Assembly: GCA_017399005.1 (NCBI GenBank)
Contig: JAFQEO010000009.1
Coordinates: 62,001 to 126,000, forward strand
Direction of reading: 5' to 3'
Length of the DNA stretch: 64,000 nt
Origin: Peptococcaceae bacterium
GTDB taxonomy: Bacteria; Bacillota; Peptococcia; Peptococcales; Peptococcaceae
The stretch's first letter is position 1. Every line of letters starts with the position of its first letter. The notes below the pieces were generated by a model. It saw only the letters and a list, made by a program, of their open reading frames with translations. It was not told the DNA's origin and made no database searches. The translations under genes were made by a program, and so were the position numbers. Positions 4,304-57,974 of this stretch are shown here, in pieces.

Positions 4304-5299
4304 TTATTTCATATTTGCAATAACCGCTTCCGTAAACGCTTTGCAACCCAGAGTGCCGCCCAGTTCACCGGTCATTTTTCCAGCTGCAAAACATGCTGCC
4401 ACTGCATCTTCAATGCGCTGTCCTTCCTCTTTCATTCCCAGGTGTTTTAGCATCATCGCAGAAGACAGAATCGCCGATGTCGGGTTTGCCAGGTCTTTGC
4501 CTGCAATATCAGGAGCCGAACCGTGTACCGCTTCAAATACAGCAACACCCTCCCCGATGTTGGCACCAGGTGCTACACCTAAGCCGCCAACCAGAGCGCT
4601 GCCCAAATCAGAAATAATATCCCCGTACAGGTTTGGTGCCACCAGTACATCATAAGCATATGGATTCAAAGCCAGATCCATACATGCCGCATCGATAATT
4701 TTATCGTTGAACGCGATATCCGGATATCCCTGGGCCACTTCTTTTGCACAATTCAGGAACAGCCCGTCGGTCAGCTTCATAATGTTAGCTTTATGGATAG
4801 CAGTCACTTTTTTCTTGCCCATATCTTTTGCATAGTCAAATGCATATTTTACGATACGGTCGCTGGCTTTTTTTGTGATAACTTTGGTTGCCTCTGCACG
4901 GCCTTCATCCACCTGTTTTTCAATACCGATATATAAACCTTCTGTATTTTCACGCACGATGGTTAAATCAATATTCTGATACAGCGACTTCACACCCTCA
5001 AAAGAGCGCAGCGGACGCAGATTCACATATAAATCCAGCCGTTTGCGGATTTCCACATTTACACTGCGGAACCCTTTGCCGATTGGTGTGGCAGTCGGGC
5101 CTTTCAGGGCAACACCATTACGAGAAATGCTTTCCAGCACTGCATCGTCAATCGGTTTCCCGTACTTCTCTGCAGCCTCTGCACCAGCCTCCTGCACCTC
5201 CCAGTCTACCTGAGCGCCTGACGCTTCAACAATCGCTTTCGCAGAAGCAATAACCTCTTTCCCGATACCATCACCGTAAATCAATGTAATTGTCTGCAT
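4304..5299 (-). CDS. NAD-type isocitrate dehydrogenase (isocitrate/isopropylmalate dehydrogenase family)
   Basis: This 331-residue beta-decarboxylating dehydrogenase oxidises isocitrate to 2-oxoglutarate. GDGIGKEV at the N-terminus, the substrate loop GKGFRSVNVEIRKRLDLYVNLRP, RENTEGLYIGIE, the K-x-NI motif HKANIMKL and the metal aspartates in LVAPNLYGDIISDL are all visible. The serine in FRSVNVEIRK is the residue that contacts isocitrate's carboxylate in ICDHs, which argues against isopropylmalate dehydrogenase, as does the neighbouring aconitase. The short length fits NAD-dependent forms. It is third in the operon with Re-citrate synthase and aconitase, separated from aconitase by a 121-bp hairpin repeat. 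The product feeds glutamate synthesis in anaerobes with an incomplete TCA cycle. Confidence 0.88.
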   Translation of the reverse strand: MQTITLIYGDGIGKEVIASAKAIVEASGAQVDWEVQEAGAEAAEKYGKPIDDAVLESISRNGVALKGPTATPIGKGFRSVNVEIRKRLDLYVNLRPLRSFEGVKSLYQNIDLTIVRENTEGLYIGIEKQVDEGRAEATKVITKKASDRIVKYAFDYAKDMGKKKVTAIHKANIMKLTDGLFLNCAKEVAQGYPDIAFNDKIIDAACMDLALNPYAYDVLVAPNLYGDIISDLGSALVGGLGVAPGANIGEGVAVFEAVHGSAPDIAGKDLANPTSAILSSAMMLKHLGMKEEGQRIEDAVAACFAAGKMTGELGGTLGCKAFTEAVIANMK

Positions 5300-5354
5300 A
5301 ATATAACCTCTCTTCTATTCCAGTTATAACAATTTTATGTGTATGCTCATGCAA

Positions 5355-5475
5355 GTAACGTCGAAAAATTTTTACATCGCAAGGCGGCTTTTGCTTTTTC
5401 AGCGACGCGTACTAAAGGTACGCAAGGCGAGAAAAAGCAAAAACAACACAGCGATGTAGAAATTTAACACGTTAC
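5355..5475. repeat. Dispersed intercistronic long-hairpin element, copy A
   Basis: An imperfect inverted repeat fills the acn-icd gap and touches the acn stop codon. Nested pairs are GTAACG/CGTTAC at the ends, TACATCGC/GCGATGTA, a 12-bp pair TTTTGCTTTTTC/GAAAAAGCAAAA, and GCGTAC/GTACGC at the tip. Conserved unpaired blocks (AAGGCGGC, AGCGAC, CAAGGCG, AACAACRCAG) recur in copy B at 31971-32072. Both copies have the same orientation relative to the flanking genes. I do not recognise a named family. Confidence 0.85.
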
Positions 5476-7407
5476 CTATTTTTCATTTTTTATAGACGTC
5501 AGCAGACCTCCACCCAACAGCAGCGCTTCCTGTCTGTCACCTAATTCGATATTCAGTTCTACGACTGCGCCTGTAGATTTGTTTGTCATGGTCACTTTAC
5601 CGGCTTTAATCTGTTCAATCAGGCCGTCAAATGCCAGTTCATCTCCTTCGTGGATGTTATCATAATCAGCAGGGTTGGCAAATGTCAGCGGAATGATACC
5701 GTTATTCACCAGATTCTGTTTATGAATGCGGGCAAAGGATTTTGCCACAACGGCTTTCACACCCAGATATAATGGAGCCAGTGCCGCATGTTCACGGCTG
5801 GAACCCTGTCCGTAGTTGTCGCCTGCCACAATGATACCGCCGCCGTTGGCTTTTGCTTTTGCAGGGAAATCTGCATCACTTGGAGTCAGGCAGAATTCTG
5901 CCAGATGCGGAATGTTGGAGCGATATGGCAGTAAGGACGCATTGGAAGGCATAATATGGTCAGTGGTGATATTATCTTCCAGCACGGTCAACACTTTTGC
6001 GCTGAATGCATCCTGTGGAGGAACTGCTGCAGGAACACCTTTGATGTTTGGCCCTTTTACCAGTTCGGTTTTCCCGATATAATCCTCGTTTGGCGCAATC
6101 AGCAGATTATCATCAATTTCAAATTTTTCCGGTACTTTTGCTTCTGCAAATGCTTCGATGCCGCTTGGGTCTGTAATCACACCGGCAACAGCGGAAGCGA
6201 TTGCGGTTTCCGGACTTACCAGATATACATCGGCAGATTTTGTACCGCTGCGACCATAGAAGTTACGGTTAAAGGTGCGCAGCGATTTCCCGTTGTTGCA
6301 AGGTGCCTGACCCATGCCGATGCAAGGACCGCAGCCGCATTCCAGCACGCGGGCACCTGCTTCCAGGAAAATAGACAGCAGCCCGTCATCTGCCAGACGT
6401 TTTAAAATCTGACGGGAACCCGGGGAGATTACCAGAGAAATATTTTCATTTACTTTTTTGCCTTTCAGCAGCATCGCACATTTTGCCAGATCCAGATAAG
6501 AAGAGTTGGTGCAGCTGCCGATAGCTACCTGCTGAATCACTTCACCGGCCAGTTCGCTGACAGCCACTACTTTATCCGGGCTGTGCGGACATGCCACCAT
6601 TGGAACCAGTTCATCCAGATTTACTTCAATTGTTTTAAAATATGCTGCATCTTCATCGGCAGCCAGAGGCTGATATGCATCTTCTCTGCCCATGGATTTC
6701 AGGAATTCTCTTGTGATTTCATCACTCGGGAAAACAGATGTGGTAGCACCCAGTTCCGCCCCCATATTAGTGATGGTTGCACGTTCCGGTACACTCAGTG
6801 TTTTTACACCGTCACCGGTATATTCATAAACTTTATTTACACCGCCTTTTACGGTTTCCTGCTGCAGTACATACAGAATAATATCTTTAGCAGATACCCC
6901 TGCACGCAGTTTGCCTGTGAGACGAACTTCAATCACTTCCGGCATCTGAATATAATAGCTGCGCCCTGCCATTGCAGCAGCAACGTCCACGCCGCCGGCA
7001 CCGATTGCCAGCATCCCTAAACCGCCGGCTGTCGGGGTATGACTGTCCGAACCGATTAAGGTATCACCCGGTACCCCGAAGCGTTCCAGATGCACCTGAT
7101 GGCAAATACCGTTCCCCGGTTTGGAGAACCAGATACCGTAGTTTTTCGCCGCACTCTGAATAAACAGATGGTCGTCAAAGTTTTCCGGCCCTGCCTGCAG
7201 CATATTATGGTCGATATAAGCAACGGACAGTTTTGTTTTTACACGGTCAATCTCCATGGCTTCCAGTTCCAGATATGCCATAGTACCGGTAGAATCCTGT
7301 GTTAATGTCTGATCAATTCTTAAACCGATTTCAGTTCCCGGTTTCATTTCCCCGTCTGTGATATGACGGCTGATAATTTTTTCTGTTAAGTTAGCCACGA
7401 TCTCCAC
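5476..7407 (-). CDS. Aconitate hydratase
   Basis: This 643-residue 4Fe-4S enzyme isomerises citrate to isocitrate through cis-aconitate. Cluster ligands are visible as C299 (GSCTNSS) and C359/C362 (CGCGPCIG). The N-terminal half carries DSHTPTAGGLGMLAIGAGG. The C-terminal swivel domain carries NYGQGSSREHAAL. The length is that of the compact single-chain anaerobe/mitochondrial-like forms, not the ~890-residue AcnA/AcnB. The GTG at 7407 overlaps the end of the Re-citrate synthase gene by 17 nt; a second in-frame GTG at 7398 is an alternative start. Overlap implies translational coupling. Confidence 0.94.
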   Translation of the reverse strand: MEIVANLTEKIISRHITDGEMKPGTEIGLRIDQTLTQDSTGTMAYLELEAMEIDRVKTKLSVAYIDHNMLQAGPENFDDHLFIQSAAKNYGIWFSKPGNGICHQVHLERFGVPGDTLIGSDSHTPTAGGLGMLAIGAGGVDVAAAMAGRSYYIQMPEVIEVRLTGKLRAGVSAKDIILYVLQQETVKGGVNKVYEYTGDGVKTLSVPERATITNMGAELGATTSVFPSDEITREFLKSMGREDAYQPLAADEDAAYFKTIEVNLDELVPMVACPHSPDKVVAVSELAGEVIQQVAIGSCTNSSYLDLAKCAMLLKGKKVNENISLVISPGSRQILKRLADDGLLSIFLEAGARVLECGCGPCIGMGQAPCNNGKSLRTFNRNFYGRSGTKSADVYLVSPETAIASAVAGVITDPSGIEAFAEAKVPEKFEIDDNLLIAPNEDYIGKTELVKGPNIKGVPAAVPPQDAFSAKVLTVLEDNITTDHIMPSNASLLPYRSNIPHLAEFCLTPSDADFPAKAKANGGGIIVAGDNYGQGSSREHAALAPLYLGVKAVVAKSFARIHKQNLVNNGIIPLTFANPADYDNIHEGDELAFDGLIEQIKAGKVTMTNKSTGAVVELNIELGDRQEALLLGGGLLTSIKNEK

Positions 7408-19916: not shown

Positions 19917-21215
<1,299 letters not shown>

Positions 21216-21288
21216 CTAAATGTTTTTATTTATATTCCGGGACAGAACCGGCGCAAAAATGCGTCAGAACGTCCTCAACACTGGCTGA

Positions 21289-22812
21289 TTAAACTAAACT
21301 TTCGCCTGTCATATCTGCCGGTTTCTCAATGCCCAGCAGTTTCAGCACAGTTGGTGCCACATCCTGCAGAGAGCCGTCTTTCACGGCACATGGCTCTGCA
21401 CTCATCACGATAAATGGAACCGGATTTGCGGTATGCGCAGTATGCGGTGTTCCTTTCACAGGGTCCACCATCTGCTCTGCATTGCCGTGGTCGGCGGTAA
21501 TTAACAGTACACCGCCAGCTTTCTGCACAGCGTCTGCCACTTCTCCCACACATTTATCAACGGTTTCTACCGCTTTCTGAGCAGCTTCCGGAATGCCGGT
21601 ATGACCAACCATGTCGGTATTGGCAAAGTTCACTAAAATAAACGGATATTCTCCGCCATTAATGGCTTCAATTAAACGGTCTTTTACTTCGATTGCACTC
21701 ATTTCAGGCTGCAAATCATAGGTGGCAACTTTTGGAGAAGGAACCAGCAGTCTGTCTTCCAGCGGATTTGGTTCTTCCACACCACCATTAAAGAAGAATG
21801 TTACATGAGCATATTTTTCTGTTTCTGCTACACGGAACTGTTTCACCTGATTTGCCGCCAGCACCTGCCCCAGTGTATTCTGTAAATCCTGCGGCGGGAA
21901 TGCCACAGTCACATCCAGGCCTTCCTCGTACTGGGTCATGGCAACATAGCTGACACCCAGATATTCACGGGTAAAGCCGTCGAATTCTTTATTTACAAAT
22001 GCTTTGGTGATTTCACGAGCACGGTCGCCGCGGAAATTGAAGAAAATCACGCCGTCACCGCTGCCGATTGATGCAACCGGCTGGCCGTTTTCCTGCACCA
22101 CAGTCGGCAGTACAAACTCATCGGTTTCCCCTTTGTCATAAGACTGCTGCACAGCTTCCGCTGCACTGGAGGCTTTCTCACCGATGGCTGCAGTCATAGC
22201 ACGATATGCTTTTTCCACACGGTCCCAGCGGTTGTCACGGTCCATAGCGTAATAACGCCCGGATACTGTGGCAATTCTGCCGACACCGATTTCCTGCAGT
22301 TTTTCTTCTAATTCCTGCACAAAGCCCAGCCCGGTAGACGGCCCAACGTCACGCCCATCCAGGAAGCAGTGTACATAAACATCTTTTAAACCTTTCGCAG
22401 CTGCCAGTTCCAGCAGACCATATAAATGACTGCTGTGGCTGTGTACACCGCCCGGCGATACCAGCCCCATCAGATGCAGCGGTTTATTCTGCTGCAGGCA
22501 GTGATTCATCACCTGCTGAAACGCTTCGTTATCCTGCAGGGTGTGCTCACGCACTGCTTTATTGATTCTGGTCAGTTCCTGATACACAACACGACCGGCA
22601 CCCAGATTCAGATGCCCCACTTCCGAGTTGCCCTGCTGCCCTTCCGGCAGCCCGACATATTCGCCGGAACAGAACAGCTGGCTGTGCCCGTACTGCGCCA
22701 GTAATCTGTCCATATTTTCTGTATTGCTCAGGGCAATCGCATTGCCCTCTGTATGTTCGCTGATGCCCCATCCATCCAGAATCATCAGCACAACAGGCAG
22801 TTGTTTGTTCAC
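21289..22812 (-). CDS. gpmI: 2,3-bisphosphoglycerate-independent phosphoglycerate mutase
   Basis: A 507-residue Mn-dependent alkaline-phosphatase-superfamily enzyme that interconverts 3- and 2-phosphoglycerate. The catalytic serine is in QQGNSEVGHLNLGAGR. HCFLDGRDVGP, FFNFRGDRARE, and the metal segments VNFANTDMVGHTG and LLITADHGNAEQM are all present. It starts at GTG with a GGGGGG ribosome site. Length is usual. It stands between tpiA and eno. Confidence 0.97.
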   Translation of the reverse strand: MNKQLPVVLMILDGWGISEHTEGNAIALSNTENMDRLLAQYGHSQLFCSGEYVGLPEGQQGNSEVGHLNLGAGRVVYQELTRINKAVREHTLQDNEAFQQVMNHCLQQNKPLHLMGLVSPGGVHSHSSHLYGLLELAAAKGLKDVYVHCFLDGRDVGPSTGLGFVQELEEKLQEIGVGRIATVSGRYYAMDRDNRWDRVEKAYRAMTAAIGEKASSAAEAVQQSYDKGETDEFVLPTVVQENGQPVASIGSGDGVIFFNFRGDRAREITKAFVNKEFDGFTREYLGVSYVAMTQYEEGLDVTVAFPPQDLQNTLGQVLAANQVKQFRVAETEKYAHVTFFFNGGVEEPNPLEDRLLVPSPKVATYDLQPEMSAIEVKDRLIEAINGGEYPFILVNFANTDMVGHTGIPEAAQKAVETVDKCVGEVADAVQKAGGVLLITADHGNAEQMVDPVKGTPHTAHTANPVPFIVMSAEPCAVKDGSLQDVAPTVLKLLGIEKPADMTGESLV

Positions 22813-30686: not shown

Positions 30687-31907
30687 TTATTTTTCTGCGT
30701 TTTCTTTTACCATTGCACGAACTTTTAAGGACAGGCCAAACAGGTTGATGAAACCTTCTGCATCGTGGTGGTCATACAGGTCGCCAGTGGTAAAGGATGC
30801 CAGGCTTTCGCTGTACATGCTGTATGGAGAAGTGGTACCCTGTTTGATGATGTTACCTTTGTACAGTTTCATTTTTACTTCACCGGTCATGTTCTGTTCG
30901 GTGGATTCAATAAATGCCTGTAATGCTTCTCTTAATGGAGTGAACCATTTGCCTTCGTATACAACGTCGGAATATCTGGTTGCCACCATTTTTTTGAATG
31001 CGAATGTGTCACGGTCGGTAATCAGTTCTTCCAGCTGTTTATGTGCTTCTACCAGAATGGTGCCGCCTGGTGTTTCATATACACCGCGGGATTTCATACC
31101 AACAACACGGTTTTCTACGATATCCACAATACCGATACCATGTTTGCCGCCCAGTTCATTCAGAGCGGTAATAATTTCAGATACTTTCATTTTCTGGCCG
31201 TTCAGAGCAACCGGAATCCCTTTTTCAAAGCTCAGAGTCAGTTCTTCTGCTTCATCCGGAGCTTTTTCAGGAGATACGCTCAGCACCAGCAGGTGGTCGT
31301 AGTTTGGAGCAGTTGCCGGGTTTTCCAGTTCCAGACCTTCATGGCTGATGTGCCACAGGTTGCGGTCACGGCTGTAGCTTGTAGTTGTAGAGAATGGCAG
31401 AGTAATGCCGTGTGCTTCGCAGTATGCAATTTCATCTTCACGAGACTGCATATTCCACAGTTCATTCATACGCCATGGCGCAATAATTTTTAAATCTGGA
31501 GCCAGCGCTTTGATACCCAGTTCGAAACGAACCTGGTCGTTCCCTTTACCGGTTGCACCGTGACAGATTGCAACAGCGCCTTCTTTACGAGCTACTTCTA
31601 CTAATTTTTTTGCAATCAGAGGACGAGCCATAGAGGTACCCAGCAGGTATTTGTTTTCATAAACAGCACCAGCCTGTACACATGGCATTACGAAATCTTC
31701 ACAGAATTCATCCACCACATCTTCGATATACAGTTTGCTTGCGCCGGAGTACAGAGCGCGTTCTTCCAGACCATCCAGTTCTTCGCCCTGACCTACGTTG
31801 ACACAGCAGCAGATTACATCGTAATCAAAATGTTCTTTTAACCATGGGATAATGGTTGTGGTATCTAAACCACCGGAATATGCTAATACTACTTTTTCTT
31901 TAGACAT
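30687..31907 (-). CDS. argG: Argininosuccinate synthase
   Basis: The 406-residue ATP-dependent ligase joins citrulline and aspartate in arginine synthesis. Diagnostic features: VLAYSGGLDTTTIIPWL (PP-loop) at the N-terminus, LGTSMARPLIAK, CHGATGKGNDQVRFE, IAPWR and SRDRNLWHISHEG. The usual length applies. It follows argF on the same strand, separated by copy B of the hairpin element; argH is not in the window. Confidence 0.98.
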   Translation of the reverse strand: MSKEKVVLAYSGGLDTTTIIPWLKEHFDYDVICCCVNVGQGEELDGLEERALYSGASKLYIEDVVDEFCEDFVMPCVQAGAVYENKYLLGTSMARPLIAKKLVEVARKEGAVAICHGATGKGNDQVRFELGIKALAPDLKIIAPWRMNELWNMQSREDEIAYCEAHGITLPFSTTTSYSRDRNLWHISHEGLELENPATAPNYDHLLVLSVSPEKAPDEAEELTLSFEKGIPVALNGQKMKVSEIITALNELGGKHGIGIVDIVENRVVGMKSRGVYETPGGTILVEAHKQLEELITDRDTFAFKKMVATRYSDVVYEGKWFTPLREALQAFIESTEQNMTGEVKMKLYKGNIIKQGTTSPYSMYSESLASFTTGDLYDHHDAEGFINLFGLSLKVRAMVKENAEK

Positions 31908-31970
31908 TGAATATTTCGCTCCTTAAAGTTGTAGAATTATACTAATCTTTTCTTTATTTCAGGCGCAGAG

Positions 31971-32072
31971 AAAATTTCGTAGAACAAGGCGGCTTTTCAA
32001 TTTTTGAGCGACGCGTACTTTGAGGTACGCAAGGCGAAAAAATTGAAAAACAACGCAGTTATACGGAATTTT
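31971..32072. repeat. Dispersed intercistronic long-hairpin element, copy B
   Basis: Same layout as copy A at 5355-5475. AAAATTTCGTA pairs with TACGGAATTTT; TTTTCAATTTTT pairs with AAAAATTGAAAA; the tip GCGTAC/GTACGC is identical. The 12-bp middle stem has a different sequence from copy A but is still fully paired, while unpaired AAGGCGGC, GAGCGAC and GCAAGGCG blocks are conserved. It lies in the argF-argG gap in the same orientation relative to transcription as copy A. Confidence 0.85.
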
Positions 32073-32096
32073 AACCAGCCTTAACAAGTCATTATA

Positions 32097-33023
32097 TTAC
32101 ATTACAGTTGCCATAATAGCCTTATGCGCATGCAATCTGTTTTCCGCTTCATCAAATACTACAGACTGTGCACTTTCCATTACTTCGTCGGTTACTTCGT
32201 AGCCGCGATATGCAGGCAGGCAGTGCATAAAGATTGCATCCGGTTTTGCCAGAGCCATCATAGCGCTGTCAACGGTATAACCTGCAAATGCTTTCTGACG
32301 TACTTCTTTTTCTGCTTCCTGACCCATACTTGCCCAGGTATCAGTGTATACAACATCTACCCCTGCGATAGCTTCTTTTGGATCATGCATAACGGTTACG
32401 CTGCCGCCGGATTCTGCTGCATACTGCTGTGCCAGCGCAACAATTTCCGGATTTGGCATATAACCTTCCGGACAGGCAACGGTTACATCCATCCCTACTT
32501 TGGCACCGCCAATCATCAGAGAATGGGTCATGTTGTTGCCGTCACCAACGTAGGCAAATTTGATGCCTTTCAGCTGGCCTTTGTGTTCCTGAATGGTAAT
32601 CAGGTCGGCAATTACCTGTGTTGGATGATAGTCGTCGGTTAAGCCGTTAATAACCGGAACATCTGCATATTCTGCCAGTTCTTCCACTTCTGCATGGCTG
32701 TAGGTACGAATCATGATACCATCCACATAGCGGGATAATACACGGGCTGTATCTTTAATCGGTTCGCCGCGGCCAATCTGCAGGTCGTTGGTGCTTAAAA
32801 ACAGAGCCTGGCCACCTAACTGGTACATCCCTACTTCGAAGGATACACGGGTTCTGGTGGAGGATTTCTGGAAAATCATGCCCAGACTTTTGCCTTCCAG
32901 CACTGGTGTTGGAATCCCGGCTTTCAGTTTTGCTTTTAAATCAATCCCCAGATTTACCATATCCACGATTTCCTGGCCGGTAAAATCTTTCAGGGTTAAG
33001 AAATCTCTGCCTTTTAAACTCAT
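32097..33023 (-). CDS. argF: Ornithine carbamoyltransferase
   Basis: The 308-residue enzyme makes citrulline from ornithine and carbamoyl phosphate. The carbamoyl-phosphate loop SSTRTRVSFE, the HPTQVIADL-type segment (YHPTQVIADLITIQ), and the ornithine-binding HCLPAYRG are visible. The ATG at 33023 was chosen because AAGGAG lies 10 nt upstream; a GTG three codons earlier is too close to it. First gene of argF-argG behind a promoter covered by likely ArgR boxes. CarB (46976-50143) in this window would supply carbamoyl phosphate. Confidence 0.97.
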   Translation of the reverse strand: MSLKGRDFLTLKDFTGQEIVDMVNLGIDLKAKLKAGIPTPVLEGKSLGMIFQKSSTRTRVSFEVGMYQLGGQALFLSTNDLQIGRGEPIKDTARVLSRYVDGIMIRTYSHAEVEELAEYADVPVINGLTDDYHPTQVIADLITIQEHKGQLKGIKFAYVGDGNNMTHSLMIGGAKVGMDVTVACPEGYMPNPEIVALAQQYAAESGGSVTVMHDPKEAIAGVDVVYTDTWASMGQEAEKEVRQKAFAGYTVDSAMMALAKPDAIFMHCLPAYRGYEVTDEVMESAQSVVFDEAENRLHAHKAIMATVM

Positions 33024-33046
33024 ACGATTCACGCTCCTTATATCAT

Positions 33047-57814: not shown

Positions 57815-57974
57815 AAACCGGAACAATAAATTTGCATACAGCGCATTCGAAAACAAGATGGATATTTCCGTAGTCTGTTCGCTTTAGCTGGATTTTCAAT
57901 CCAGCTAAAGCGAACAGGCAAGGAAATGTCCAGATATTTGAGGAAAGCTGTAAGCAAATTATTCGTTCCGGTTT
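57815..57974. repeat. 160-bp near-symmetric inverted-repeat element (MITE- or giant-hairpin-like)
   Basis: The ends AAACCGGAAC-AATAAATTTGCATACAGC (57815-) and their imperfect reverse complement (-57974) enclose GGATATTTCC/GGAAATGTCC. A central 20-bp perfect stem CTGTTCGCTTTAGCTGGATT (57875-57894) with its complement (57898-57917) has a 3-nt loop. No ORF is inside. It fills the gap between codY and the dusB stop codon. Confidence 0.75.

Follow-up and report, generated by a model that had tools for sequence, protein, structure and literature searches.

Whether the dispersed hairpins found behind stop codons (REPs) are selfish DNA or regulators has been a matter of debate for decades. In the 64,000-nucleotide stretch of Peptococcaceae DNA analyzed here (the window), two gaps between genes carry alike long hairpins, copy A behind acn and copy B behind argF. 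Both copies are present as a sequence-only reading had described them, and that reading left two explanations, namely, an RNA element controlling operon genes or a mobile palindromic family. Our analyses place copies A and B in a previously undescribed dispersed family of about 125-nt mobile-DNA-like hairpins. The second explanation is supported; the first is not supported as the main one.

Covarying stems in a dispersed hairpin family

The CAAGGCGGC-first strand is called the E strand, and the anatomy is read along it. The element (~125 nt) has four stems, P1 (about 6 bp), P2 (about 14 bp), P3 (12 bp, variable in sequence), and P4 (6 bp, apical, GCGTAC/GTACGC), and its internal loops are L1 (ACGCAGG / ACAAG), L2 (CAAGGCGGC / ACAACGCAG), and L3 (GAGCGAC / CAAGGCGA). 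The stems are variable and the internal loops fixed; the length of P1 holds family-wide, its sequence varies, and beyond it pairing is at background level. The three loops, as read from the alignment, are alike on alternating sides, (A)CAAGG(CG) being set against ACGCAG/AGCGAC. The apex tolerates insertions, because two copies from one related genome (L244 and L247 of G004) carry the same additional hairpin of ~25 nt (CGACCAGAAGGGCGTCGGGCGC core) within the apical loop. Short forms of 87 nt (L188:2501-2587 and L204:2501-2587) appear to be deletions between CGCCTTG direct repeats of loops L2 and L3.

The host genome (G000; 2.4 Mb, 39 contigs) holds about 30 distinct family loci. Copy A found 38 matches there by blastn, and a covariance model (R1) built from 24 of the host's copies found 49, the best with an E value of about 1e-26; the surplus reflects opposite-strand matches to these loci. 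The search that the sequence-only reading had proposed for this genome and its relatives thus recovered many further copies, nearly all in one orientation to transcription and with paired stems. All eight genomes of the genus carry the family, with 9 to 54 model matches each (opposite-strand matches included). Outside the genus, one of five other genomes of the taxonomic family was positive, a sister genus with two tandem copies, and the covariance-model search found no copies in the other four. A pattern scan of 84,980 species genomes gave matches only in uncultured Peptococcaceae/Clostridia MAGs, mostly from the ruminant gut. The viral contigs, phages, and plasmids searched gave no matches, and a phage or plasmid vehicle was rejected on this ground. 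Nothing in Rfam 15 scored above the gathering score, and the one match seen at a relaxed threshold, to MIR4239, was sub-threshold and not credible. All of this rests on draft genomes, most of them MAGs.

The proposal that stem changes preserve the pairing was borne out very strongly. Among 24 copies of a single genome, 31 of 40 base pairs showed compensatory changes (0/500 shuffles), with a covariation score of 0.495 versus 0.167 in shuffles. Standard pairs filled 95.1% of pair cells, compared to 77.4% after shuffling and 35 to 47% in slid structures, and changes on both sides occurred in 170 pair cells versus 51 in shuffles. Covariance-model alignments are biased toward the model structure; the initial test of covariation was made on a sequence alignment (MAFFT). 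Covariation between paralogous hairpins may nevertheless stem from a mobile family and is not proof of a riboregulator.

An intrinsic terminator is a G+C-rich hairpin followed by a T-run at the transcript end. Ordinary terminators, or chance similarity of AT-rich palindromes, would agree with hairpins lying downstream of genes. The covariation and copy-number tests refute this reading, through the shuffle and slide controls and the best E value. Furthermore, separate intrinsic terminators lie downstream of several copies and elements are present inside operons, so that its probability is negligible.

Copies A and B in the window

Whole-genome searches found only these two family copies in the window (Table 1). 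The E strand is the + strand of the window and is antisense to acn/icd and argF/argG; for copy A, this is the folding strand. The gene downstream of copy A begins 55 nt past the element. The 12-nt remnant beside copy B has exactly the sequence with which the intact orthologous copy in a related genome (L224 of G002) begins at its 5' end. Elsewhere in the window, at 57866-57926, a strong inverted repeat with 29-nt arms (86% complementary) around a 3-nt loop is unrelated to the hairpin family.

Table 1. Hairpin copies, neighboring genes, and an empty orthologous site, in window coordinates
Feature	Position	Strand	Basis or remark
Copy A, whole element	5355..5475	+	Covariance-model match G000:C5:67346-67475 (window 5346-5475); predicted fold
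Copy A, outer stem P1, left arm GTAACG	5355..5360	+	Pairs with 5470-5475; predicted fold
Copy A, P1, right arm CGTTAC	5470..5475	+	Adjoins acn stop codon directly
Copy A, conserved loop L2, left side CAAGGCGGC	5380..5388	+	Near-invariant alignment columns
Copy A, loop L2, right side ACAACACAG	about 5443-5451	+	Near-invariant columns
Copy A, stem P3, left arm TTTTGCTTTTTC	5389..5400	+	Pairs with right arm GAAAAAGCAAAA, 5431-5442
Copy A, loop L3 (AGCGAC / AAGGCGA) and apical stem P4 GCGTAC/GTACGC	5401..5430	+	
Aconitate hydratase gene (acn)	5476..7407	-	ORF; NCBIfam aconitate hydratase, 955.7 bits; stop codon TAG at 5476-5478 (CTA on + strand), flush with copy A
Gene downstream of copy A	4304..5299	-	ORF; named icd by the sequence-only reading
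Copy B, whole element	31961..32081 (about)	+	Covariance-model match G000:C5:93951-94082 (window 31951-32082); predicted fold
Copy B, stem P3, left arm TTTTCAATTTTT	31994..32005	+	Pairs with about 32038-32049
Copy B, apical stem GCGTAC-TTTGAG-GTACGC	32013..32030	+	
End remnant of older copy, TTAACAAGTCAT (mRNA sense ATGACTTGTTAA)	32081..32092	+	Between copy B and argF stop codon
argF (ornithine carbamoyltransferase)	32097..33032	-	ORF and family search; stop codon TAA at 32097-32099
Gene downstream of copy B	30687..31907	-	ORF; named argG by the sequence-only reading
Orthologous empty site, gap after gene 21289-22812 and before eno	21204..21288	.	Filled in two related genomes (G004, L244; G005, L175)

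Position at stop codons

The shared orientation to transcription noted for copies A and B extends to nearly all other family copies. In E orientation, and with flanking genes called approximately by a simple codon-usage script, the arrangements were -E>- in 90 copies (tandem gaps), +E>- in 24, +E>+ in 4, and -E>+ in 3, the remainder being cut at contig ends. Convergent gene ends thus host 24 of 136 copies, about a fifth. The sense-5' end of the element lay between -13 and +10 nt from the upstream stop codon in 113 of the 124 copies with an upstream ORF. In tandem gaps (n = 90; median residual length, 150 nt), 81 copies lay within this range, compared to 19.6 (SD, 3.4) expected under uniform placement, and the far end was never flush with the next start. 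A convergent gap offers a stop codon to either end of the element; 22 of the 24 convergent copies adjoined the one at their sense-5' end, and 1 adjoined the other stop codon. All three stop codons are used, in the right frame, with one fixed element end and orientation. The exceptions lie at intrinsic terminators (L188, L200, L223, L169, L173, and L209) or, reversed, at ribosome-binding sites (L192, L139, L208, L144, and L245).

Since intrinsic terminators often lie downstream of copies, the element falls within the transcript, and the hairpin is probably transcribed together with host operons. Both this and the flush placement in tandem and convergent gaps favor a host-functional 3'-UTR element, in which the hairpin would shield the upstream message from 3' exonucleases or act on terminating ribosomes, a role also proposed for Escherichia coli REPs located no more than 15 nt from a stop codon. 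According to PMC12306157, which cites Liang 2015, 260 of 496 E. coli REPs are situated near stop codons and are able to stall ribosomes. On the contrary, the exceptions sit behind terminators or reversed before ribosome-binding sites, and the upstream genes are functionally unrelated (acn, argF, leuA, secA, pheT, dnaX, hisF, deoC, rpsR, arcA, xth, folE, and others). No coherent gene set or common theme emerges, and a regulon was rejected for this reason. We find a host 3'-UTR function doubtful; a secondary effect on the message, by analogy with REPs near stop codons, is possible and is the main rival to the mobile reading.

The strand under pairing selection

The wobble pairs indicate which strand folds. 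Across 126 aligned copies, G-U pairs on the E strand number 236 versus 69 A-C pairs, and the commonest wobble position is T-G in 70/126 copies and C-A in none. Three positions supply most of this excess, and without them the counts are about 99 to 58. Changed pairs in ten close orthologous pairs comprised 17 compensated, 14 E-strand G-U, 4 A-C, and 14 broken. The diverged relatives described below (family f6) gave G-U versus A-C counts of 28 to 2, from copies that are partly near-identical, and one of their P2 positions is T-G in 11/14. Of 127 copies, 101 fold more stably on the E strand with RNA parameters and 110 with DNA parameters. Unexpectedly, selection for pairing thus acts on the strand opposite to the upstream gene and not on the fold that the mRNA would adopt; either single-stranded DNA or antisense RNA is compatible with this. 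Wobble kept on the nontranscribed strand, unrelated upstream genes, and the copies at convergent gene ends together argue against control of operon genes, and the first of these also counts against a 3'-UTR function.

Antisense-strand folding and abutment on stop codons are shared with integron attC sites, whose outer boxes R' and R'' (GTTRRRY / RYYYAAC) are conserved. Elements exchanged at fixed sites would likewise suit a single-strand recombination site analogous to attC, folding on the bottom strand at stop codons and recombined by some enzyme of the host or of another source. However, the outermost stem P1 is the most variable part of the element, unlike the R' and R'' boxes; no integron integrase (TIGR02249) scored above the cut-off in 13 genomes; and the element is inserted or lost alone between conserved neighbors, not gene plus site as a cassette. 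We consider such an attC analogue very improbable. It also seems unlikely that the family is a mobile element tied to translation-termination sites and working as a folded antisense single strand, as a non-integron counterpart of attC-like sites. If true, such an element could reveal how hairpin sites reach their positions behind genes.

Turnover at orthologous sites

Orthologous sites may be filled, empty, or replaced. At filled/empty sites, such as the gap before eno in the window, the element was gained or lost alone between conserved neighbors. Orthologous copies are either near-identical (up to 0.99) or no closer than random family members. The gene pair L196/L159 encodes proteins that are 98% identical, with four-fold sites at 0.80, and is followed by elements of different subfamilies (0.68). 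Another copy, L161, is chimeric: its 3' half matches the orthologue, and its 5' arm has been swapped and no longer pairs. Within genomes, no paralogues are near-identical (maximum identity, 0.92), and thus there has been no recent burst.

Fragments of older copies lie downstream of intact copies, within about 200 nt (one at 1.2 kb), share the orientation of the intact copy in 14/15 cases, and are mostly 3' halves. They occur only downstream because the gene lies upstream; the informative part is the bias toward 3' halves. An origin of P1 by copying from the target gene was rejected, as the inner P1 positions are element-specific and filled/empty comparisons give it no support. Paralogous genes can each have an element behind them, as seen in the host genome for L187 and L178 (DUF6291/DnaB_2-like) and in G005 for an unnamed protein family (L167, L168, L176, and L207). 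This suggests that gene and element were duplicated together at these loci.

Orthologous sites without the element in related genomes count against a host 3'-UTR function. In its favor, some orthologous copies are 96 to 99% identical while four-fold sites are at about 0.5 to 0.6. This looks like host-level purifying selection and weighs against the mobile reading.

Relatives with MITE features

The covariance model also picked up diverged relatives in family f6 of the same class (6/9 genomes searched; up to 19 matches), with one match in family f7; the best E values for these relatives were 1e-9 to 1e-10. The f6 elements end in inverted terminal repeats of 19 to 20 bp, perfect or near-perfect, with three subfamilies that have different repeats (19-bp ends of the GGCATCGTTACGAAATAAA type). 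Of the 11 readable copies, 8 are flanked by TTA at each end, and copies that are almost identical occur at different places. By their terminal repeats, TTA duplication, and near-identical dispersed copies, these sequences can be classed as classic MITEs. In the f6 genome G041 (C213), a gene ends in TAA followed directly by the MITE terminal repeat GGCATCG in reverse orientation (L284), and some predicted f6 ORFs end inside the terminal repeat, although the genome is G+C-rich. The genus copies are, as MITEs are, short noncoding elements in many dispersed copies; their ends consist only of the ~6-bp outer stem, and no target duplication was recognized by eye in their flanks.

MITEs depend for mobility on an autonomous relative that shares their ends and supplies the transposase. 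No autonomous relative was found among the inspected f6 loci, where single terminal repeats were examined and no transposase was recognized. Y1 transposase, reverse transcriptase, and integron integrase were not consistently present in the genomes searched. A REPIN/RAYT system, in which a REP-associated Y1 transposase mobilizes hairpins, would account for dispersed hairpins at 3' intergenic positions near stop codons. Nevertheless, the Y1 transposase (PF01797) is absent in 7/8 element-carrying genus genomes, and a 125-nt multi-loop hairpin without near-identical copies does not fit such a system, which makes this reading hardly credible.

Proposed persistence of the family behind genes

Mobility is supported by the family's dispersal and restriction to the genus, by remnants of earlier copies, by exchange of one copy for another behind a given gene, by orthologous sites that lack the element, and by the MITE relatives. 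The best explanation, to which we give a probability of roughly two-thirds, is a MITE-derived, non-autonomous mobile hairpin family whose copies are retained and exchanged directly at stop codons; in this best reading, it is not a cis-regulatory RNA of host operons. Against mobility count the lack of a recent burst, the short outer stem and absence of a clear target duplication in the genus copies, the near-identical orthologous copies, and the searches that found no transposase partner. The data show the family, its fold, folding strand, position, and turnover, and its kinship with MITEs; the steps of movement are inferred. Copies would be spread and replaced by machinery that recognizes the antisense strand in folded, single-stranded form. 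A new copy may take the position adjacent to the stop codon and leave part of the older copy behind. Repeated replacement, together with erosion of unconstrained sequence on the gene side, would bring the element to the nearest constrained boundary, which may be a stop codon, an intrinsic terminator or, rarely, a ribosome-binding site; the evidence for such a ratchet is the fragments. The transcribed hairpin would be tolerated at this boundary. By analogy with E. coli REPs, the hairpin may also influence the stability of the message or the termination of translation, but any such influence would be secondary.

In its roughly 130 copies from nine genomes, the family combines strong covariation with a strand asymmetry that can be tested and with orthologous sites in filled, empty, and replaced states. 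The question of why hairpins lie exactly at stop codons is therefore directly testable.

Comparison with known systems

The REPs and REPINs of enterobacteria and pseudomonads are likewise dispersed extragenic hairpins, often just behind stop codons. In contrast, the elements described here are about 125 nt long, with several conserved internal loops and their own covarying stems in each copy. Their orientation is fixed, one end is flush with the stop codon, and most carriers lack the Y1 transposase of REPIN-RAYT systems. With integron attC sites, the family shares structure conserved over sequence, bottom-strand folding, and a place immediately behind the stop codon. It has neither an integrase nor conserved outer R boxes and stands behind housekeeping genes, not cassettes.

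MITEs of 100 to 170 bp (ERIC/RU-1 of 127 bp, RU-2, and RU-3) are like the family in size, imperfect palindrome, and intergenic dispersal. We know of no sequence kinship of the family to ERIC. The f6 relatives share terminal inverted repeats and the TTA target duplication with bacterial MITEs. The genus copies differ in having no long terminal repeats or clear target duplication, as well as in the compensated stem variation among them and in their flushness with stop codons.
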